Below are positions 4,901 to 51,449 of a DNA stretch of 64,000 nucleotides, piece by piece. The notes under the pieces are model-generated. The model was not told where the DNA came from. It saw only the letters and a program-made list of their open reading frames with translations, and searched no databases. Within the stretch, counting starts at the first letter, position 1, and each line of letters begins with the position of its first letter. Made by a program: the position numbers and the translations under genes. The DNA is taken from contig JAHLKD010000116.1 in assembly GCA_025526935.1 (NCBI GenBank), forward strand, positions 62,001 to 126,000. The letters are read 5' to 3'. The stretch comes from Cladochytrium replicatum (Eukaryota > Chytridiomycota > Chytridiomycetes > Cladochytriales > Cladochytriaceae).

Positions 4901-6271
4901 TATGGAACAATGATTGAATGGTGCGTAATGAGTCTCAGGATCAACTCTACTCAATCATGTTCCAACGGAGTGGAAGTAGAAAAGATGACATGGAATCCAT
5001 GTATTTATGTTGAACAGTGTTGAATTATAGTTTCTCATAATGTTTTTTGTTTAGCAGAAAAGAACTCTCAGTGTAAAGAGCTGTGTCGTCTGTTTTCGCC
5101 AGCCCACACCACTTCCCGTGTTGGCTTGTTGCTGTTTGCGCAAATTCCTACATTTGAGTTCAGGCTGAAGGACTTTCAGGCTCAGATGTTTGCTCGCTGG
5201 TCTAGTGATTCCAGCCCTCTGTTTCCATCTGCTGTGTTGCAATTCTATCAGTCATCTCCAGTTGGTTATTGTTCATCTCCTTATGTTTCAGCTTGTCACA
5301 ATGATTTCATTGTCCCTATGCCTGTTAGGCCCCGTTGATGTTGCATTTTCAGTCTTTAGCTGTTCCGCATAATGGACCAATTGCAGTTTTGTTTGCCCTT
5401 GTCCGCGATTGTCACCATTTGTTGCTTCCCCTGCACCAACATTTCCCAACAGTATGTCTTTGTTTGTTGCTGCTATATCAGCTTGGCTGCCTGTTTCCCA
5501 ACCCCCAACCCTATTGTAGGAACTGTCATGGTGCCCCTGAAGTGTCGCGTGCCCAAGTCTCTGTGTGTTTACATTTACGTACTAGTTTGTCTGCTAGTTT
5601 TGATTTAAGCCTGCCTGATGATCCCCGCTTACCTCTTGATATGGCAATTGATGTGCTTTCACCACAGCCTTTTTCCTTCAGCTGTTTTTTCCCAGTGGGT
5701 TCTTGTTCTTCGTGCACTTAACCGCATTTGGTCAATCTGTGGTTATGACCTAGTTTTGTCTCCCGCTCCTGATTCTATCTGGTCTGCTTTGTTGATTTGG
5801 ATATGCGTTATGAAACATTTTCCTTTTCATATGGCTCGCACAGCTCGCCATGTCCTGCCAATTTACATATATTTTTTACACTTGTATTTGGATTTCGCAC
5901 CAGCGAGTGATATGTATTGGTTGGAAAATAAACATATTATGAAGGGGAAAAAAGCACTGAACTCCATTTTGTTTACTTAATTGTCTATTTCAGACAAACT
6001 TTAGTTTAAGGGAACATGATGGAAACTTGATGGAATGTGCAGGATTTTACGTTGGGGAAAATTTTAGCACTTTGGATTGATCTAAAGTGGAGCTCATGCT
6101 GCTCAATATACTTGAAGATCTTCTACCTGATCCTTCTTTTCCAAAACCCAACAATCAGAATGTGGTGACGGATACATAGATTGGACATTTAACATTTGCA
6201 CGAAATACATGCTAACTTGGCTATGTAGTTGGTCCACTTTGAGTCCTCCTCAAAGTCGACTGCCTAATACT
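4901..6271. other. No recognised gene; many short overlapping open frames
   Basis: The plus strand at 5100-5980 is pyrimidine-rich and has overlapping open stretches in all three frames, none with a recognisable domain. They may be remains of a retroelement linked to the copia fragment upstream. I see no RNA gene. The stretch ends at the target-site duplication of the hAT element. Confidence 0.4.
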
Positions 6272-6279
6272 CTTGCTAC
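6272..6279. repeat. Target-site duplication, left copy
   Basis: CTTGCTAC directly precedes the left terminal inverted repeat of the hAT element and is identical to 12214-12221. Confidence 0.9.
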
Positions 6280-6479
6280 TAAGGATCGGCGGGTTTTTAG
6301 GGTCTTTCGGGTCGGGTCCGGGTCCATTGACCAAATGTACCCGACCCGAGTGCCGGGTTTTCATGGAAAATTTTCGGGTCGGATCCGGGTCGGGTATCAG
6401 GTCCAGTAAGAAAACCCTTCTCGGGTCAAAAATCAGACCCAAGTAAAACCTGATGTGATAGGGAAGCTAAAACGAAGCT

Positions 6480-6890
6480 ATTGTTCTTTCTGTCCAAGCG
6501 GACACTTTCCAAGAAGACGCAATATAAGTTTTGTATGTATCAAACAATTTGCATCACAACAGACATCGAGGCATGTATTTTCTGTCCACCTGGACACTTT
6601 CTCAACTCATTGATGGTACTTCAGGGATCTCTATCAAGTACAACTAACCTCTCTATCAATGTTACTAGCAATAAGATTCTGTCCACCCGGACACTTTCTC
6701 AACATTGACGTACTTCAGTTATCTCTACTCAATACAACTAACCTCTCTATCAATGTTACTAGCAATAGGATTCTGTCCACCCGGACACTTTCCAAGAAGT
6801 CACAACGGAAGTTCTGTAACAAACAATTTCTACCACGACAGACCTCGAGAGCTGTGCTTTCTGTGCACCTGGACACTTAGAGTCGGTAAC
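6480..6890 (+). repeat. Left array of 97-bp repeats with TGTCC..GGACA motif
   Basis: At least five copies of a near-palindromic motif of the form CTGTCCACCCGGACAC occur near 6490, 6582, 6679, 6774 and 6860, with 76-97 bp spacing. The spacers are shared (CTCTCTATCAATGTTACTAGC). The array is upstream of the transposase start and is the mirror image of the array at 9390-10110. Such subterminal motif arrays are usual transposase-binding sites in hAT elements; that role here is an inference. Confidence 0.9.
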
Positions 6891-6914
6891 GTTTCCAGCC
6901 ACACCACAGCAAAA

Positions 6915-9340
6915 ATGGACGCCGCCTTTGTTAAACCAAAGCGTAAGGCAGCGTCCGACGCAAGCCAAAGACTGGTGGACAGTCATCCGCTTGACACACG
7001 GAAGCGAAGTCTGCCAGCCCCCCAAATTTCAGAGGCGTCCAGCGTGGGGAACAGCATGCAGGACAAACGCAGACTAGTATCAGGACATGGTGGCAACAAC
7101 AGCGCTCGAGAGCTGAGCTCCACATCTTCTTCCAATGACTCCAGCGAGTTGGGCCTGGCTTCTCAGCGTGCACCAGAGCTTCCTGCCGACCTTAGTTTTG
7201 CTGACTCTTCAGTGCGATAGGAGCCTGCAGCTGGATCAGTTCAACCATCAATGCTTTCATCAGACGCAGATGTTGATAGCATGTCGGACTGTAGAGGTAG
7301 TCGAGGCGGCATAGCGAAGGATTACTATAAGGTTGATAATGGTCTGAGAACATGTTTGGTTGCGAAATGCAAGTGGAGCCAGAAGGTCGATAAGACAGGA
7401 TCAACAAAACACTTCCTCCGGCATCTGAAAAACCACCATGGAAGTATTCCCAGGTCGCTTGGACTGTTGGACATCGTCCCCAAGGGACAACAGACATTGA
7501 ATTTCGGCTCGCAGGAGAAGGAGCAAAACTTTGTGTTCAATCCAGACGTAGCGTGGCGGTCGATTTTGGACTTGATTGCTGCAGACAATCAGGCTTTTAC
7601 TGTTGTGGAGAACGAGTTCTTTGTCAGCATGCTGAAGACTTTTCAGCCAAACTATACACCAAAGACGGCAAAAGCAGTGAAGCAAAAGGAGATGGATCTT
7701 TACGATAGGCAGAAGGAGCTCGTTAAAGGTCTGATTGTTGGTTCGCCTTCAAAAGTATCAATAACAGCTGACTGTTGGACATTGAAGAACCAGATTTCTT
7801 TTCTTGGAATTACTGCCCACTTCATCACGAAAGAATGGGAGCCGCAGGACTTGCTGCTGCAGATGATTCCGATGGTTGGAAAGCATGAAGGCGTCGCCAT
7901 GGCTAATCAGCTTGTCAAGTGTCTGGATGAATTTGGCATGCTATCGGGTGAACGCTTATCGTGCATTACAACTGACAACAGTTCAAACAACTTTACCATG
8001 AGTGCTAAGCTGGAGACGCTCTTGGAAGATAGGGATATTGCGTGGTCTGCAGAAACTCAACACATGCAGTGTATGGCACACATTATTAATCTTGCAGCAA
8101 AGGATTTTATCGATACATTCGCGCCTGCAGGGGACACAGTCGCAAATGACGATAACTCCGGCGTTAATGTCATAAACCTTCTTTGACGGCTAGTCAGAGG
8201 AATCCGGTCTTCCCCAAAACGACGAAGCTCATTTATTGATTCGTGCCAATTTGTGAAACTGGTTCCTCTATTACCAATTATCAATGTGACAACTCGCTGG
8301 AATAGCACGTTCTATGAGCCTTACAGCTACAAGAGGCAATGGACAAAATATGCTGGATTGAAGATTCTTTGAAGATTGGTCAATAAATCCAAAGCAATGG
8401 GAGGTCCTACAGAAGATCCGGGATGGTTTGAGTGTTTTCAAGGTTATATCAAAGGCAATCGAGGGGTCTAGATATCCAACACTTCCGCTTGTTATTCCAT
8501 CTTACAACGATCTTATCGATCAACTGGAGGACCTAGAGGAGGCAGAATTGGATGAAACTTTCACCAAAAGCATTTCAAAATGCACTAGATAAGCTGAGAA
8601 TATATTACTCAATCGCTAAGAGCCCGTGTTTAGCAGTTGCTACGGTACTCGATCCTCGTTTTAAGGATCAATGAATGTTATCGATTTTCAAAGGTTTGGG
8701 AGAAAGATGTAGGAAGGGATCAGGTCACCCTAGTGCAGAAAGTCTGGGAGGAATCGTATAAGTCACAGAAAATCAACAACAGTGGTGCCGATGTTTTTGG
8801 AAACATGCCAGAACGTCGACACGATTCGAGCGGAGCTTCCGGTGTAGACAGAAAAAAACAGACGCTGAACGCTTGAGAGCCATTAGATCCGTTTTCATCT
8901 GGCAAGAAGAGATTCCTGAGGAAAAAGATGAGCTGGATCGCTATCTTGGCGATCAGGTACTCCGCGATATTGATTCTGATGGGAAGCCAATCAATATTAT
9001 GGACTGGTGGAAGACCGTTGGAAGTGTGAACTTTCCAGCCCTAAGCCAGATGGCAATTGACTATTTAGGAATACCAGCAACAAGCGCTCCAGTCAAACGA
9101 AAGTTTTCAGCCGGGGTTGATTTGGTCCCTCAACTTGCAACCGCCTTGCTCCAAGAACAATAAATGCGTTGATGTGCCGCCATGACTGGTTGCATCAATT
9201 GAGTGCTGAAGAACCGTTCAAAAATGATTCCCTAGATTCAAAAAGTGATGTTAGTGAGGATTTTGTAAAGGTGCATAATTTTGGCGAGGATTTTGATGTG
9301 GTATTAGAGTTGGAAGCAACTGATGATAACCCACTCTTTT
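6915..9340 (+). pseudogene. hAT transposase, interrupted
   Basis: The likely start is ATG 6915. The frame runs to an in-frame TAG at 7218-7220 and continues in the same frame to a TGA at 8184-8186. After that the homology goes on through several frame changes to about 9340. Domains in order: a disordered Ser-rich N-terminus; a BED-type zinc finger with CLVAKC and HFLRHLKNHH (about 7355-7440); the RNase H-like core with the first Asp in ITADCWT and the second in TTDNSSNN; then CMAHIINLA, TRWNSTF and the hATC dimerisation region at 8873-9163. The motif that reads SAPVERKFS in the other copy is SAPVKRKFS here, an acidic-to-basic change. Two stops and several frameshifts make it non-functional as read. 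Confidence 0.9.
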
Positions 9341-9389
9341 AAATATAAATTGCTGTTTAGACTGTTCATCTGTTGAAGTACCATCCAGG

Positions 9390-10110
9390 AGTTGAGAAAG
9401 TGACCGCCCGGACAGAATCCTATTGCGAGTAGTATTTGTAGAGAGGTTGGTTGTACTTGATCGAGATCAGTGAAATATCAGTGAAGTACCGTCAATGAGT
9501 TGAGAAAGTGTCCGGGTGGACAGAATCTTATTGCTAGTAACATTGACAGAGAGGTTAGTTGTATTGGGTAGAGATCACTGAAGTACCGTCAATGAGTTGA
9601 GAAAGTGTCCGGGTGGACAGAATCCTATTGCTAGTAACATTGATAGAGAGGTTAGTTGTACCTGATAGAGATTACTGAAGTACCGTCAATGAGTTGAGAA
9701 AGCGTCCGGGTGGACAGAAAATACATGCCTCGATGTCTGTTGTGATGCAAATTGTTTGATACATACAAAACTTATATTGCGTCTTCTTGGAAAGTGTCCG
9801 GGTGGACAGAATCCTATTGCTAGTAACATTGATAGAGAGGTTAGTTGTATTGGATAGAGATCACTGAAATACCGTCAATGAGTTGAGAAAGTGTCTGGGT
9901 GGACAGAAATCTGGGAGACTGAGTGTCACTGTGTCTGTCTCGGTAGAATAGGATTCTGTCCCCCCAGACACTTTCTCAACTCATTGACGGTACTTCAGTA
10001 ATTTCTATCAGGTACAGCTAACCTCTCTATCAATGTTACTAGCAATAAGATTCTGTCCACCCGGACAGAATCCTCTCTATCAATGTTACTAGCCAGTTTC
10101 TTCCCTAGCT
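9390..10110 (-). repeat. Right array of 97-bp repeats, inverted relative to the left array
   Basis: Units beginning GAGTTGAGAAAGTGTCC start at 9497, 9594 and 9691, an exact 97-bp period. Variant units continue to about 9910. After that the orientation flips (motif in plus orientation at about 9957 and 10052), so the array ends in its own inverted repeat. About eight motif copies are visible. The homologous position in the copy at 2057-2830 has only one unit, so the array has expanded since the two copies separated. Confidence 0.9.
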
Positions 10111-10231
10111 TATTATTTTCAGATCGGGTAGAAAACTATAGTATCAGGGAAGTATTATAGCATACATTCCTGTAACATTCCGGCTAAGAACACCGGGCCA
10201 GTATCTTCCCACGACAAACAGTACAAACACC

Positions 10232-11913
10232 ATGCCTCAAACTACAAAGAAGCGAGCATTGAAACAATCCAGACCATCATCTGAAAGAGAATCAAGTGCA
10301 GAACCGGTGACTGCACCTGAAACATCTCTGGGATCGGGTTCTGAAGTGGAAGAAGCAGAAGTTGGCCTTGATGTCAAATCGACAGATGTCAAATCGACAG
10401 CTCCTTCAAAGAAACCGGCGCGACGTGGTACAAAAGGGGATGCTGACTATTTGCTCATCGACAGACTCTGTCCTGCTTCAGACATACGACTTTGGTATCG
10501 AAAATTCAAAGCAAGCAGCCACAGCTACGACTCGGAGGTCTTCATCAGCAACTGTCAAACAAATCGCGATGAATGCGGCCCAAGATTTGTTGTTCAAGGG
10601 TTGATCGACCGACTTAACTCTGACAGCAAGCTAGTTCGTCAAGCCCTGAACAAAATTCACGATGAATGCAGTTGACGAACGGAGTTCATAACAGCAGCAA
10701 ACGCCTATCGTATGGAGTGCTTGAAAAGCTCTTCCTTTCAGAAGGAAACAACATTTCTGGACTTTTACAGGCGGCAGGGACACAAGTACGGCATTTACAG
10801 AGGAATGCCTGTCACTGCAAAGGTTGACGAGTTCCAGCGACCATCAAACGAGCAGATGAGGACCATGAAAGGACAAAACAGGTCCTCAAACAGTCAGAAC
10901 AACTGTTGAACAGACAAAAGATCTTGAAGAGACTGCAATGAACGAGAGAAGGACCTGCATCGCAGCAGAAGTGCGAGAGAAGGCTCTCATTGATGAATTG
11001 GGCAGGGCGGGTGCATTGATTCAGCACGGCGAGCACGAAGAGCTAGCAAGATTCAGGGAGATCACCGCTGCAATGGAAAGGGAGAAGCAGGCGACTTCCC
11101 AGGAGATTTCACAATGGAAATCATGTGTGACCGCTTTGGAGGGAGAGCTTGCTGCTCTGAAACGACAGGCTGGCATTCAGAAGCTGCAGCACCACCTGCG
11201 GCGCCAACATCAACAGGCGGCCCAATAAGCATATCGTCGGCTATCAAGGGGATTGGTAGAATTCCGAAGGTACATCGAACCAGTTCTCCAACGAGTTCCC
11301 TTGCATTGCTTAGCCTGCAGCAGCACCGTCGTACGGCTATCCTTTTGGTGAAGAGGTCATCCAGGGTATCTGCTTCCAGATGCATAAGATCAATGAGGTT
11401 ATTTATGACCTTAAATTGCCGTCTCTTCCACCATCAATCAAGTACGTCAACGTAAACTACGAAGTCCTCTCCCGAAATGAGTTTTTACGGCCCATATTTG
11501 TTGAATCAGACGACCACTCAAGCCGAATATCAACTTCAAGTAGCAGTGCGCGGAGCAGCCTTACTCTTCTTAGGGTGCACATTTTGCTCGGAAACTGGAT
11601 ACGGCACAATAATTCGCTAAGTACGTCTGCCACTATCTATCGCATGTTCAGGGCATTAGTGGATGCATATCCTTCTGAGTGGCTAAGGTTCTGGACGGCA
11701 TACATCGGGCATCTTTCGTCCATAACGCTCCCTGAGGTGGATTGGAAACCTTGGAAGACAGGTTTAGCCAAGGATTTCATGCTTTCAAATGACGACATTG
11801 ATCGGTTCATCAGGACTGGGTTGGGGAAGGACGTAACCAGTGGTGGATGGGACTCTGACGATAGGAACCAGATACAGAAGCTGATTTGGGCTGTTCCACC
11901 TATCAACTTGTGA
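10232..11913 (+). pseudogene. Decayed cargo gene region of the hAT element, unknown function
   Basis: The open frames look like one ancestral gene. Frame 10232-10675 has a basic, Lys/Arg-rich N-terminus with KKPARRGTKGDADYLLIDR. It continues in the same frame beyond a TGA at 10673 to 10909. A frame change then leads to a coiled-coil segment (about 10830-11228) rich in Glu, Lys, Ala and Leu heptads. A C-terminal segment (11380-11913) is rich in Trp and Ser, with WLRFWTAYIG and WKPWKTGL. I recognise no family. The truncated copy at 2057-2830 includes the start of this region, so it belongs to the element. It could be an accessory DNA-binding protein or a captured host gene; I cannot say which. 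Confidence 0.55.
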
Positions 11914-12213
11914 TTGTTCAGTGGAGTTTTGTTTCTTTTTACGATAGTGTTTCTAAAATACACACTGTCCACACAGACACAAAGTGTTCATGTAAATATC
12001 CGTGGTCTAACTCAAAGTTCAATCAATCCTCTCCTGGGCAGCAAAAACCCGGCGGGTCAGGGTCGGGTACGGGTTTCAACCACTTCGGGTCCGGGTATTC
12101 CCTTTGTACCCGTCAGTGACCCGGCGGGTCCCCAGACAAACACGACCCGACCCAAAGGGTTTAATGCGGGTCGCCACTGAAACCCGGACCCGACCCGGAC
12201 CCGCCGAACCTTA

Positions 12214-12221
12214 CTTGCTAC
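12214..12221. repeat. Target-site duplication, right copy
   Basis: CTTGCTAC directly follows the right terminal inverted repeat of the hAT element and is identical to 6272-6279. Confidence 0.9.
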
Positions 12222-13160: not shown

Positions 13161-14463
13161 TCACTTCTGCTTGTAGTAGCTACCCGAGGTCTGAGCTTCG
13201 CAGATCGCCTTCCAGTTCTTGGCCTGCTTGAAGCAAGAGTCGTAGCCATAGCTGTAGCTAGCTCCGCAGTTGGCAACGTACGTCTCGTAGGTGACCTCGC
13301 AGTGGTCCTTTGAGTAGTAAGTGTCCTTAGGAGGCTCGTAGGCCCCGTGAGCACGAGCGGGAGCCTTGTCATGAACACGAGCGCGAGCTCCGTAGTAAGT
13401 CGAAGGAGCCTCGTAATACTCGGTTTCGGGCTCGTAGTAAGAGCCACCAGAAGTCTGAGCGCGGCAGATTGCGACCCAAGCTTCGGCGTCCTTCTTGCAG
13501 GTGTCGTAGCCGTAAGAGTATGATCCTTGAGCCTCGCAGATAGCCAGGTGCTGTTTGTAGGTAACCTCGCAGTGGTCCTTTGAGTAGTAAGTGTCCTTAG
13601 GAGACTCGTAGGCTCGGTGAGCACGAGCGGGACGCTTGACACGAACACGAGCGCGAGCTCCGTAGTAAGTCGAAGGAGCCTCGTAGTATTCGGTCTCGGG
13701 CTCGTAATACTCGGTTTCGGGCTCGTAGTAAGAGCCACCAGAAGTCTGAGCGCGGCAGATTGCGACCCAAGCTTCGGCGTCCTTCTTGCAGGTGTCGTAG
13801 CCGTAAGAGTATGATCCTTGAGCCTCGCAGATAGCCAGGTGTTGTTTGTAGGTAACCTCGCAGTAGTCCTTTGAGTAGTAAGTGTCCTTAGGAGGCTCGT
13901 AGGCTCCGTGAGCACGAGCGGGAGCCTTGACACGAACACGAGCGCGAGCTCCGTCGTAAGTCGAAGGAGCCTCGTAGTACTCGGTCTCGGGTTCGTAGTA
14001 CTCAGTCTCGTGTTCGTAGTACTCCTCCGCCGGCGGCTCGTAGTATTCGGTTTCCGGTTCGTAGTAAGTGTTCGGAGGCGTGTAGTAACCACCGCTGGTC
14101 TGGGCCTGGCAGATCGCCAACCAGGAGTCGGCCTGCTTCTTGCAAGTGTCGTAACCGTAGCCGTAGCCCTGAGACTTGCAGATCGCAACGTGAGTTTCGT
14201 ATGTGACCTTGCAGTGATCAACTGCACTTTAGATTTCAAGATCAGCACGGATCACGCTAGATCACGGCTTCGCGTCAATGACTTTGACTTTACCTCTGGG
14301 TTGTGAGACGAGGAGCTGAGCCGGCCTTCACTGCCGGCGCGGCAGCGGCAGCAGCAGCGGGAGCAGCAGCTGGGCCAGGGTTTGCATTAGCGTTTGGGTC
14401 GGCGACTGGGGCGGCCGAAGCGCCCGCGGCGAGGAGTGCAACAACGAGGTAGTTGGCAATCAT
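13161..14463 (-). CDS. Secreted Tyr-rich, four-cysteine tandem-repeat protein
   Basis: The model is two exons, 14463-14294 and 14226-13161, with a 67-nt GT-AG intron (GTAAAG...CTAAAG); phases agree and give 411 aa. The start has a good context (GCCACCATGA) with TATTTAAAT about 75 nt upstream. The N-terminus is a signal peptide (MIANYLVVALLAAGASA) followed by an Ala/Pro-rich linker. The rest is four repeats of about 60-100 aa. Each has a Cys module (DHC.VTY...ICEAQ.SYGYDTC.K..W.AIC) and a tyrosine-rich tail of YYEPETE units, then an Arg/Ala/Val-rich segment. The sixteen regularly spaced cysteines suggest disulfides, and the Tyr tails suggest a cross-linked extracellular or adhesive material. 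No known family is recognised. An upstream alternative acceptor (GTGCAG) is out of phase. Confidence 0.8.
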
Positions 14464-41581: not shown

Positions 41582-43205
41582 TCAGAACTTTTCTTTTCTG
41601 AACACAAACTTGGTCCCGCCATTCGCATTCACCTTTCTGCACGCCTTCCTAAGCGTCTCCGCCAACGGGCTCGGACCGCAATAAAACACTCCAACTTCAT
41701 CCGCGCCAAAGCTATTGTTCTGCGCCGCGACGCCCGAGAAGATCCCGTCCCAGTTCGGGCGGCCATAGTGGCACCGGGTCTTGAGCTCGATCAACGGATC
41801 GACCTCATCGTCCTGGTTCAGGACAATGTTTTGAATATCATCGAGCGAGAGCTTGCCGGTGAGGTAGACGTGAATCTCGAGGAAGCTCGTGGGGACGGAT
41901 TCCTCGAGGGTCGCGAGAAGCGAGTGGAACCATTCAAAGGCTTCCTTGTCGCGGTTGATCCAGAAGAAGTAGACTTTGCGGAGCTTCATGGGTGCTTTCC
42001 GGTAGTAGCGGTACCAGACGGATTTGAGCAGGGAGGCGGATGGCGTGACGCCGATACCAGCGCCGACCAAGACACCCACGCTGTAATTATAGAAGTCTTC
42101 AGCGGGTGCACCGTAAGGACCATCGACACGGATGGTGGGGAGGACCTTGGCGCTTTGATAGCCGCCGAGAAGCTGGGAGGCTTTTCGGGTCCAGTCGCCG
42201 ACAATACGAATGTGGATCGAGACAAAGCCTTCCTCAGGCGTCGAAGTGATTGTGAACTAATCGGTCAAGATAGTGAGATCACCAGTTTCGAAGTGGCGAC
42301 ATTTTCCAAACTTACAGGATGCCACTCGACCCTCGAAACATCAGGAATGTTGATGAACAGGTATTGGCCAGGTTTGTACTTGAACGAAGGCTTTTCGAAT
42401 TGAAGCTCCATGGTGTTTCCAGGGTGGAAAACGACCTTGATCAGCGCCGTAAACTGTCGTGCTCTGTACTCTCGCAACATCCTTTCGAGGAAGTACAGCG
42501 CAAACACGGGCACGGTGTAGTAATAGTTGCTGTATGGCCTGCACTCTCCCTTTCCGGTCTTGACGAAGCAGCCGTAGCCATGGAAGAAAAGCAAGATGTA
42601 GTAGAAAAAGTAGAGATGGTGCGTGATCCAGAAAACTTCGAATTTGCGCCTCCGCACCTCGATTTTCGCGGAGGTGTGCATAAGGAACATGATCACGAGC
42701 ATGATGTGGCCAGTTGTTCCTGCCCATGTCATGTAGTGAATCTGCCATGCACGGAACGGGAGCACTTTGAAGAGCTTCAATTCAACAACGAAGAAGTTCT
42801 GGTAGTGCGCGTTCACGTGGACCATTGTGAAGAACAAGTTTGCATAGGCAGCACATTTGTGGAAGTAAATGTTGTCATCAAAGTCCATGATGTGACGGAG
42901 GGGCGTTGTTCGGAGAATGGCAATCAGATTTCGGCATACGGGGACAAGCAGACATGTACATGTATAACACATTACAAGGCCTGCTCCTCGAGAAGAGAAC
43001 ACAGATCCTCCGATTGAATTGAGAAGTGTTAGGCCAGGGTCATCTCTTTGCTTACTAGATAAGGCAGATTTATAGAACATCAGCTGTGCATTTAGTAAAA
43101 TCCCGATCACACATACATGAACCCATAGATGAAGAGAGCGACGTTCGATGCAACCCAGAAGGTGTACCAGGCAATTCGCTTTGGGGTAATCTCCCACAGT
43201 CCCAT
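41582..43205 (-). CDS. NADPH oxidase (NOX), copy A
   Basis: NOX enzymes pass electrons from NADPH through FAD and two hemes to make superoxide on the far side of the membrane. Exons 43205-43117, 43054-42316 and 42256-41582 give exactly 500 aa. Heme-ligand histidines are in FHKCAAYANLFFTMVHVNAH (14 residues apart) and THHLYFFYYILLFFHG. The FAD site is HPFTITSTP with YKPGQYLFINIP. The NADPH sites are DGPYGAP, GVLVGAGIGVTPSASLLK and the C-terminal FRKEKF. No EF-hands are present, as in fungal NoxA/NoxB. This copy lacks the third intron, which is present in copies B and D, so its last two exons are fused. Confidence 0.95.
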
Positions 43206-43542
43206 GTTGATTGGATGATGCTGTGCACAGATTCGGCAGCTGAGTGGGGCTGGGACCTGCGATGAATTTAGGATGCACACGCAGCGGCAAACATACAGAA
43301 ACCGTTTGAGGACCAGCCGCAAGTTGCCGTTTTTTAGGTTTGCACCGGGAGAGTTGGGACAGGCGAGAGCACGTGGACTGACCCGCCGGCATCAGAACAC
43401 GTGGGGTAGAATTTAAATCTAATATTCCAAAAAAGGACACAAAAAGGACCAAAAATTGGTGGTAGAAGTAGTTGGAGTATAGCCAAAAGAGAGAGAGTGT
43501 GTACACGAGTAGTGGGGATGGGTGTAGTCTCTGGGTGTTTGC
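43206..43542. other. Spacer between NOX copies A and B
   Basis: 337 bp containing the end of copy B's 3' flank and the upstream region of copy A. No gene is seen. Confidence 0.5.
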
Positions 43543-45218
43543 TTAGAACTTTTCCTTTCGGAAAACAAATTTCGCTCCCGATGTCGAGCTGATCTGCCGG
43601 CACGCTTTGCGCAAACTTTCTGCAAGGGGGTTTGGACCTGAAAATGGAAAACAATCAGCTCATTGTCATTGTGTTAGTCCTTCAAATCGACTTACCGCAA
43701 TAGAAAACTCCGATCTCGTCCCTTGCAAAGCTGTTGTTGGCCGCCGCAATGCCAGAGAAGATCGCCTCCCAGTTGGGTCGTCCGTAGTGGCAACGCGTCT
43801 TCAACTCGATCAGAGGATCAACCTCATCATCATGGTTCAACACGATGTTCTGAATGTCATCCACCGAGAGCTTTCCTGTTAAGTATACATGGATCTCCAA
43901 GAAACTCGTTGGAACCGATTCTTCAAGTGTTGCCAAAAGAGAATGGAACCATTCGAAGGCTTCCTTGTCACGATTGACCCAGAAGAAGTAAACTTTCTGC
44001 AGCTTCATCGGCGCCTTGCGGTAATAGCGGTACCAGACCGACTTGAGCAACGAAGCCGATGGCGTAACGCCGATACCGGCTCCGACTAAGACACCCATGC
44101 GGTAGTTGTAGAAGTCCTCTGCTGGGGCACCGTATGGTCCATCGATACGAATGGTTGGCAGCACCTTCGCGTTCTGGTATCCACCGAGAAGCTGTGACAC
44201 TTTCTTTGTCCAGTCGCCGACAATACGGATGTGAATAGAGACGAAACCTTCTTCGGGAGTCGATGTGATCGTGAACTGTAATAGATTATTAGTGACTGCC
44301 CTATGAACTGAAACAACATTGCGCTTACGGGATGCCACTCGACCTTGGAGACATCGGGAATGCAGACGAACAAGTACTGTCCTGGCTTGTACTTGAACGA
44401 CGGTTTCTCAAACTGCAGTTCCACGGTATTCCCAGGATGGAACACCACCTTGATCAACGCCGTAAACTGTCGTGCTCGGATCTCCCTCAACATCCTCTCG
44501 AGGAAGTAAAGCGAGAATACCGGCACCGTAAACCAGTAGTTGTAGTATGGCCTGCAGTCTCCAGTACCAGTCTTCACGAAGCATCCGTAGCCGTGGAAGA
44601 ACAGCAGAATGAAGTAGAAGAAGTACAGGTGGTGCGTGATCCAGAACACCTCAAACTTGCGTTTCCGCACTTCGATCTTCGCTGACGTGTGCATGAGGAA
44701 CATGATGACCAGCATGATGTGGCCGGTCACACCACCCCACATCGTGTAGTGGATCTGCCACGCCCGCACAGGAAGAACTTTGAAGAGCTTGAGTTCAACG
44801 ATGAAAAAGTTCTGGTAGTGCGCGTTGACGTGCACCATTGTCCAAAACAGGTTGGCGTAGGCAGCGCATTTGTGGAAGTAGATGTTGTCGTCAAAGTCCA
44901 TGATGTGTCGGAGCGGGGTTGTTCGGAGAATGGCAATCAGATTGCGGCAGACAGGTAGAAGGAGACATGTGCAGGTGTAGACCATGGCCATACCAGCTCC
45001 TCGAGAGGAGAACACGGACCCGCCGATAGAGTTGAGGAGGGCAAGTCCGGGATCATTCTTTTGCTTACTATACAATGGAAGTGGGTCAATCCCCGTTCAC
45101 ACTTGAGGTAATTTAGATAGATCACTCACAGGAATCCCGCAATGAAGAGCCCTACATTAGACCCGAACCAAAAGAGATACCAAGCAATGCGCTTGGGTGT
45201 GAGCTCCCACAGACCCAT
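43543..45218 (-). CDS. NADPH oxidase (NOX), copy B
   Basis: Exons 45218-45130, 45067-44329, 44275-43696 and 43637-43543 give exactly 500 aa, with the same exon lengths as copy D (89, 739, 580 and 95 nt). The heme histidines (FHKCAAYANLFWTMVHVNAH; THHLYFFYFILLFFHG), FAD motif (HPFTITSTP), NADPH motifs (DGPYGAP; GAGIGVTPSASLLK) and C-terminal FRKEKF are intact. It lies head-to-tail with copy A, 337 bp away, so the pair arose by tandem duplication. The C-terminal tail differs from the other copies (ISSTSGAKF against NANGGTKF), so it is the most diverged intact member. Confidence 0.95.
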
Positions 45219-49759: not shown

Positions 49760-51449
49760 ATGGGGCTGTTGGAAATAACACCGAAACGACTGGCATTCTA
49801 CGCCTTTTGGGCTTCGACTAACATTGCACTTTTCGTATACGGGTTCTTGTAAGCCAATAATACTTAATTTCCATCTCTGTTTTGACTATCCAGCCCATTT
49901 TGTTGTCCAAAGCAAACAAAAGAATGATCCAGGGTTGACTCTGCTTAACTCCATCGGTGGATCCGTCTGGTCTTCCAGAGGTGCAGGCCTTGCCATGTGC
50001 TACACATGCACCTGCCTTCTTGTTCCCGTATGCCGCAACCTGATCGCTGTTCTTCGCACCACACCTATCCGACACATCATGGATTTTGACGATAATATCT
50101 ACTTCCACAAATGCGCGGCGTACGCGAACCTATTCTGGACAATGGTGCATGTCAACGCGCACTACCAGAACTTTTTCATGGTTGAACTCAAGCTTTTCAG
50201 CGCACTCCCATTCCGAGCGTGGCAGATCCACTATACAATGTGGGGTGGCGTGACGGGCCACATTATGCTTGTGATCATGTTCCTGATGCACACGTCGGCA
50301 AAGATCGAAGTCCGTAGACGCAAGTTTGAGGTGTTCTGGATCACCCACCATCTGTACTTTTTCTACTACTTTTTGCTGTTCTTCCATGGATACGGATGCT
50401 TTGTGAAAACGGGAACGGGACAGTGCCGACCTTACAGCAACTTTTTCTACACCGCGCCAGTGTTTGTACTGTACTTCCTCGAGCGCTGTCTTCGCGAATA
50501 CCGCGCACGGCAGTTCACGGCCCTGATCAAAGTCGTCTTTCACCCTGGAAACACAATGGAGCTGCAGTTTGAAAAACCATCATTCAAGTACAAACCGGGT
50601 CAATACTTGTTCATCAACATTCCTGATGTTTCCAAGTTGGAATGGCATCCTGTAAGTTAACTATCGCCCTCGACCTTGTTTCCAATGATTCTGATGCATT
50701 GATTTTTGTAGTTCACAATCACATCGACACCGGAGGAAGGTTTTGTCTCCATCCACATCCGAATTGTTGGCGATTGGACACGAAAGGCCTCGCAACTCCT
50801 CGGCGGCTACCAAAACGCCAAGGTACTCCCAACCATCCGCGTAGATGGCCCCTATGGCGCACCCGCAGAAGACTTTTACAATTACAGTGTCGGTGTCCTG
50901 GTCGGCGCAGGTATCGGCGTCACACCTTCCGCCTCCCTCTTGAAATCCGTTTGGTACCGCTACTACCGCAAAGCACCCATGAAGCTCAAGAAGGTGTACT
51001 TCTTCTGGATCAACCGCGACAAGGAAGCCTTTGAATGGTTCCATTCTCTCCTGGCGACGCTCGAGGAATCCGTTCCGACGAGTTTCCTGGAGATCCACGT
51101 GTACTTGACCGGGAAGCTCTCGGTGGATGATATCCAAAACATTGTGCTGAATAACGACGACGAGGTGGATCCTTTGACTGAGCTCAAAACTCGGTGCCAC
51201 TATGGCAGACCGAGCTGGGACAAGATATTCGCGAGCGTCGGGGCAGCGAATAACAGCTTTGGTGCGAGCGAAGTCGGTGTGTTTTATTGTGGTAAGCGAG
51301 CAAAGTAGTGCAATCGATTTATTAGCAGAATTGATGTTGTCTGTTGCTGTGTAGGTCCCAATCCGCTGGCTGAAACATTGAGGAGTGCGTGTAGGCAGGC
51401 AAAGTCGAACGGCGGGACCAAGTTTGTTTTCAGGAAAGAGAAGTTCTGA
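49760..51449 (+). CDS. NADPH oxidase (NOX), copy D, inverted relative to copies A-C
   Basis: Exons 49760-49848, 49913-50651, 50712-51291 and 51355-51449 fit in phase and give exactly 500 aa. The heme histidines (FHKCAAYANLFWTMVHVNAH; THHLYFFYYFLLFFHG), FAD motif (HPFTITSTP with YKPGQYLFINIP), NADPH motifs (DGPYGAP; GAGIGVTPSASLLK) and the C-terminal FRKEKF are intact. It starts MGLLEITPKRLAFYAFWAST. The gene is on the opposite strand to copies A, B and the pseudogene C, so a local inversion or inverted duplication is needed. Confidence 0.95.

Follow-up and report, generated by a model that had tools for sequence, protein, structure and literature searches.

The stretch analysed here, called the window, covers 64,000 nucleotides of the chytrid fungus Cladochytrium replicatum (assembly GCA_025526935.1, contig JAHLKD010000116.1, positions 62,001 to 126,000 of the forward strand) and carries a hAT transposon in which a transposase gene is followed by a second gene. 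hAT elements usually have a single gene, a usual and not a defining state, and the locus raises the question of what the second gene is doing there. The comparison of copies showed that it is a regular part of a hAT family, usually but not always inside the element, because 25 of 43 paired elements matched the probes for both genes and the second gene was open from start to stop in 23 of 31 distinct aligned copies (broken in the other eight; the 31 were the best matches to the window copy, which was included among them).

As shown in Table 1, the window element at 6280-12213 was complete but dead. It was bracketed by two identical copies of the 8-bp target-site duplication CTTGCTAC, and its terminal inverted repeats, TAAGGATCGGCGGGT and TAAGGTTCGGCGGGT, both started with TAAGG. 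hAT ends begin YARNG, and the preferred target is nTnnnnAn. The words GGGTC and GACCC were concentrated in two subterminal blocks, each well above the Markov expectation for such a block (mean 1.7, maximum 7 in 2000 draws), while the central 5580 bp of the transposon contained one such word and the remaining 58,050 bp of the window contained 84. The transposase gene was broken by stops and frameshifts. A first-pass annotation made from the letters alone had already described the perfect duplication, the 14/15 terminal repeats, the dense subterminal blocks and the transposase, and all four were borne out. The element belongs to the hAT superfamily by its duplications and ends, by its dimerisation domain and by the target preference of the family.

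The same annotation had described a further reading region encoding a coiled-coil, basic protein, and called it decayed cargo. The region proved to be real; in intact copies it encoded 560 amino acids with coiled-coil hits and a predicted isoelectric point of 9.05. The word decayed was right for the window copy and wrong for many others, and cargo was too weak a term, since the gene is a standard constituent of the family.

The whole genome (50.5 Mb, 198 contigs) was searched with short probes, allowing up to one mismatch for left ends (a family 20-mer), the transposase and the second gene, and none for right ends. The probes located 246 left ends and 212 right ends, along with 235 sites for the transposase gene and 290 for the second gene; all four figures count probe sites and not whole elements. 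Control probes with backwards patterns had no matches in the genome. Since each end recurs more than 200 times and the controls found nothing, the window element is beyond chance. On C1 to C45, 85 left ends were listed; 43 of them had a partner among the listed right ends within 10 kb, and 42 remained unpaired. Besides the 25 paired elements with both gene probes, 10 matched the transposase probe only, 4 the second-gene probe only and 4 neither, so that other copies with the same ends usually but not always hold the second gene, a check proposed in the first-pass annotation. Two-gene paired copies measured 6.0 to 7.6 kb in 22 of 25 cases, and the other three were longer.

Perfect 8-bp duplications flanked 25 of the 43 paired elements (13/25 with both probes, 7/10 with the transposase only, 1/4 with the second gene only and 4/4 with neither). 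In total 27 agreed at 7/8 positions or better, and the 16 that agreed at 6/8 or fewer were taken as nested, recombined or mispaired ends. Among the 25 perfect duplications, 16 had T at position 2 and 16 had A at position 7; in the right flanks of L009-L038, each of these bases was present in 20 of 30. At 100 listed right ends, both probes were found beside 39, neither beside 28, the second gene only beside 18 and the transposase only beside 15. A second-gene probe lay within 5 kb downstream on the same strand in 55 of 97 listed transposase probes, on the wrong strand in 5 and upstream in none. The value of 55/97 is a lower bound, as the probe undercounts; six of the 42 non-linked copies were examined closely. 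Two of five probe-lacking copies (C8, C12, C17, C18 and C23) held most of gene 2 and had been missed by the probe, and a sixth, C17:84803 (L045), also held gene 2.

Intact members of the family were also found. Three fetched copies (L039, L040 and L041; contigs C14, C31 and C43, with L040 on C43) encoded an unbroken 811-amino-acid transposase and an unbroken 560-amino-acid second protein. L040 (C43, 7110 bp) was complete at both ends and flanked by a perfect duplication; for the C31 copy, the fetched sequence showed no left end. The intact transposase matched PF05699, the hAT dimerisation domain, with an E value of 2.2e-20 and the Hermes transposase with an E value of 2.3e-12, while its match to PF14372 (E 6.2e-05) was below the cut-off of that family. 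For the RNase-H-like catalytic core, with D, D and E at the positions of Hermes, the alignment to Hermes was good in the ERxFS block and weak in the first D block, and the second D was left unaligned by the tool. Among the 150 of 297 candidates that were scored in a hAT-domain search, 41 hits by reading lay in an 819-codon frame, which is the intact length. Three of the hits were fetched, two of them among the highest-scoring, and both genes were present in the same order. In the corresponding search with the second protein, 55 of 78 copies by reading had no internal stop; these 78, the best of 1100 first-look candidates, were 96-100% identical in protein.

An empty target site, which the first-pass annotation had suggested seeking in a related strain, was found within the same genome. 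On C147 (L028/L062) an element interrupted gene 2 of another family copy, with CTGCACAT on both sides of the insertion, whereas three uninterrupted copies carried the stretch once, with one base different (CTGCACCT). The arrangement also gives the order in which the two copies were nested.

Tandem arrays with a unit of about 97 bp, in both orientations, were a feature absent from the first-pass annotation. The order in the window and in three other copies was forward array, transposase, reversed array, forward array and second gene, with array length variable and 6 to 14 reversed units per copy, excluding units outside the element. In all four copies the same repeat in the same orientation headed both genes. 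This leader, together with the layout of arrays and short copies, suggests that the arrays give shared control of the two genes.

Table 1. Features of the hAT element and its borders, in window coordinates.
Feature	Position	Strand	Remark
Left target-site duplication CTTGCTAC	6272..6279		8/8 to right copy
Left 15-bp terminal inverted repeat	6280..6294	+	14/15 to right end
Left subterminal GGGTC block	6280..6450		9 GGGTC/GACCC in 171 bp
Forward ~97-bp tandem array, upstream of transposase gene	6488..6880	+	
hAT transposase gene, broken by stops and frameshifts	6915..9342	+	PF05699 E 3.2e-14; 811 amino acids whole elsewhere
Reversed ~97-bp tandem array, downstream of transposase gene	9374..9912	-	
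Forward ~97-bp tandem array, upstream of second gene	9947..10093	+	short
Second gene (basic, coiled-coil protein), broken in window	10232..11913	+	560 amino acids whole elsewhere
Right subterminal GGGTC block	12031..12213		11 GGGTC/GACCC in 183 bp
Right 15-bp terminal inverted repeat	12199..12213	-	14/15 to left end
Right target-site duplication CTTGCTAC	12214..12221		8/8 to left copy

The window copy belongs, as a dead element, to a high-copy two-gene hAT family, and we consider it rather probable that the second protein of this family is a DNA-binding accessory that aids the transposase or counters silencing; an accessory DNA-binding or anti-silencing role is our best guess. The product of gene 1 would be a cut-and-paste transposase that acts on the TAAGG ends and leaves 8-bp duplications, and the cuts are attributed to the element's own transposase because its family is the cut-and-paste hAT family. 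Gene 2 is a regular second gene, preceded by a tandem-repeat leader like that of gene 1. Its protein, with an overall basic charge, would multimerise through the coiled coil and bind the GGGTC blocks or the ~97-bp arrays, and would thereby help the transposase or keep the element expressed against silencing.

Several observations weigh against this reading. Ten of the 43 paired elements kept the transposase probe and lacked the second-gene probe, and in three of the five probe-lacking copies examined gene 2 had lost 649 to 761 bases from its start, a third of the gene or more. Searches of Pfam, PDB sequences, NCBIfam and PHROGs with protein 2 gave no family match beyond coiled-coil or weak, unconvincing hits, and both single-sequence AlphaFold models were poor, with predicted local distance difference test (pLDDT) values of 44 and 38. 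The selection signal was modest, and even gene 2 changes private to one diverged copy stood at a ratio of 0.73.

This signal was measured as the relative ratio of nonsynonymous (N) to synonymous (S) changes. Changes seen once among the 31 second-gene copies (43 N, 18 S and 4 stops) had a relative N/S of 1.0, the neutral value, while changes common to two or more copies (15 N, 13 S and 1 stop) had 0.53 and changes found in the window copy only (11 N, 7 S and 1 stop) had 0.60. When 11 diverged copies, including the window copy, were compared with an intact one, the relative N/S of gene 2 was 0.42 to 0.97, below 1 in every case; ten such comparisons of the transposase gave 0.58 to 1.82. Pooled values were 0.64 for common (p 0.03) and 0.73 for private changes (p 0.02) in gene 2, and 0.51 (p 0.05) and 0.87 (p 0.21) in the transposase, with p values that are optimistic as the copies are related and the comparisons not independent. 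At most, the ratios indicate that gene 2 is weakly constrained, to a degree comparable with the transposase.

The alternative that survives best, which we regard as unlikely though not negligible, is that a host gene was captured once by an ancestor of the burst and has since travelled with the element without being of use to it. The same linkage would result from a single capture that preceded a single burst, and this would fit the near-identity of the 78 best-scoring second proteins. Elements without a gene-2 probe still had perfect duplications, and no homologue in the four databases tied protein 2 to a transposon role. Patterns of protein 2 matched 3 stretches in a collection of viral contigs and 32 in a collection of genome contigs, none of which was confirmed as a relative; among eukaryotes, the searches covered the window's own genome. 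A single-copy host relative may exist in the same genome, where searches fill with family copies (78 of 1100 candidates scored). Against capture by the burst's ancestor stand two old fragments that join the last part of gene 2 to the right end, sharing 83-85% identity with the main family and 79% with one another, with the transposase part unseen; these place gene 2 in the element before the burst. The weak purifying signal and the shared leader array also argue against it, as does the GC content at third codon positions, which was similar in the two element genes (0.46 and 0.48), compared with values of 0.58 to 0.72 for three reading frames of the host.

Some copies carry deletions in gene 2. 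Perfect duplications round them are no proof of jumping without the gene, because the deletion may postdate the insertion. The copies on C8 and C23 share a breakpoint, and transposition after a deletion in gene 2 was considered for them and dropped, since their right flanks were identical over the 90 bp compared (L064 on C8, L063 on C23), so that on this side at least they represent a duplicated segment and not two jumps. A second pair, L013/L022 (C27 and C138), had identical right flanks over the 60 bp compared. Such pairs are either duplicated parts of the genome or two haplotypes in the assembly.

Another arrangement, in which an array-bounded transposase element was nested in or fused with a gene-2 element to which the terminal repeats belong, appears very improbable. 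It would account for the forward and reversed arrays flanking the transposase, and for short copies that consist of a left end and gene 2. Seven short copies, picked for missing probes, were examined: five had no transposase (C9, C10, C25, C33 and C46) and two had a truncated one (C23 and C44). The reversed array was absent from all seven, and no right end was found for the C33 copy. In the C10 copy the second gene was free of stops and the duplication was perfect, and the transposase-less C46 element, outside the 43, also had a perfect duplication. Loss between the two forward arrays, which have the same orientation, would give this transposase-less form without any nesting. The intact L040 held no further internal 15-bp end with up to four mismatches, both probes together were the commonest state at the listed right ends, and of the 35 copies that combine these ends with a transposase probe, 20 had perfect duplications. 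For the C9 and C10 gene-2-only copies (2558 and 2560 bp), a recent common origin was unsupported at a mutual identity of 95.3%; their second genes were 95.6% and 99.0% identical to an intact copy.

That the second frame is a chance-open or regulatory stretch and not a protein gene would suit the lack of a family match beyond the coiled coil and the low-confidence structure models, and is scarcely credible with 560 codons open in most aligned copies and a relative N/S under 1 for each of the 11 diverged copies compared.

Other features of the surroundings were recorded. Window positions 5081-5888, just left of the element, matched sequence beside the family copies L014 and L035 at 86.5% and 87.7%; a frame in the L010 flank resembled a reverse transcriptase by eye, and a repeat of the long interspersed nuclear element (LINE) type is possible at 5081-5888. 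At 13161-14228 (- strand), a 355-amino-acid frame of repeated Cys-containing, Tyr/Glu-rich units had no Pfam match. Three ferric-reductase-like frames lay close together at 42265-43542 (-), 44086-45096 (-) and 49779-50660 (+), and window Pfam matches included a cyclic-nucleotide-binding domain and an ion channel, as would suit a zoosporic fungus. Beside an old copy, L046 5671-6244 matched a hAT transposase distantly (130 residues aligned at about 21% identity, E 2e-6) and perhaps represents a second hAT family.

Compared with known hATs (Ac, hobo, Hermes and Tol2, and the fungal Restless and Crypt1), the family is alike in its 8-bp duplications, short terminal repeats, PF05699 domain and Hermes match, and unlike in its second 560-amino-acid gene, its 97-bp arrays and its larger size. 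A second-gene probe was present in 29 of the 43 paired elements, which departs from the single-gene norm. hAT elements are given a size of 2.5-5 kb in a passage of one source (PMC3942097), and for one fungus the account of its hATs covers the transposase domain and the ends, with no second gene in the passage concerned (PMC3441728). An open-access literature search, with subscription papers and Repbase reports outside its scope, brought up no two-gene hAT, which does not prove that none has been described; the passages on two open reading frames concerned PIF elements or retrotransposons.

In En/Spm (CACTA), TnpA and TnpD are two element proteins, one of which binds subterminal repeats; transposase, ends and duplication length all differ from those of the present family. 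PIF/Harbinger elements likewise combine a transposase with a second protein. For the zebrafish Harbinger it is stated, in the passage available, that a 9-bp subterminal motif is bound by a Myb-like protein, whose contact with the transposase is needed for nuclear entry of both (PMC9710019). The element here differs in having a hAT transposase, an 8-bp and not a 3-bp duplication, and no Myb or MADF match in Pfam. VANDALs, which are Mutator-type elements, share with the present family an extra gene and non-coding tandem repeats. Their VANC proteins are described, in the part of the source concerned, as binding tandem repeats of their own elements (PMC10398659). By analogy, VANC repeat binding would be the nearest precedent for an array-binding protein 2. 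The family is unlike VANDAL in its hAT transposase, and the Pfam hits of protein 2 were coiled-coil only, none linking it to VANC in a comparison made through Pfam, with no VANC sequence aligned.

We tentatively suggest, as a possibility short of an even chance, a hAT lineage with a dedicated second protein of an undescribed family that binds the ~97-bp arrays as an anti-silencer or transposition partner, an independent counterpart of the VANDAL/VANC or PIF/Harbinger pairs. Set against the one-gene hATs of the textbooks, a two-gene hAT with hundreds of copies, of which many are undamaged, would offer a simple system for asking why a second protein is kept where a transposase should suffice, and whether unrelated superfamilies of transposons have repeatedly gained accessory or anti-silencing genes.

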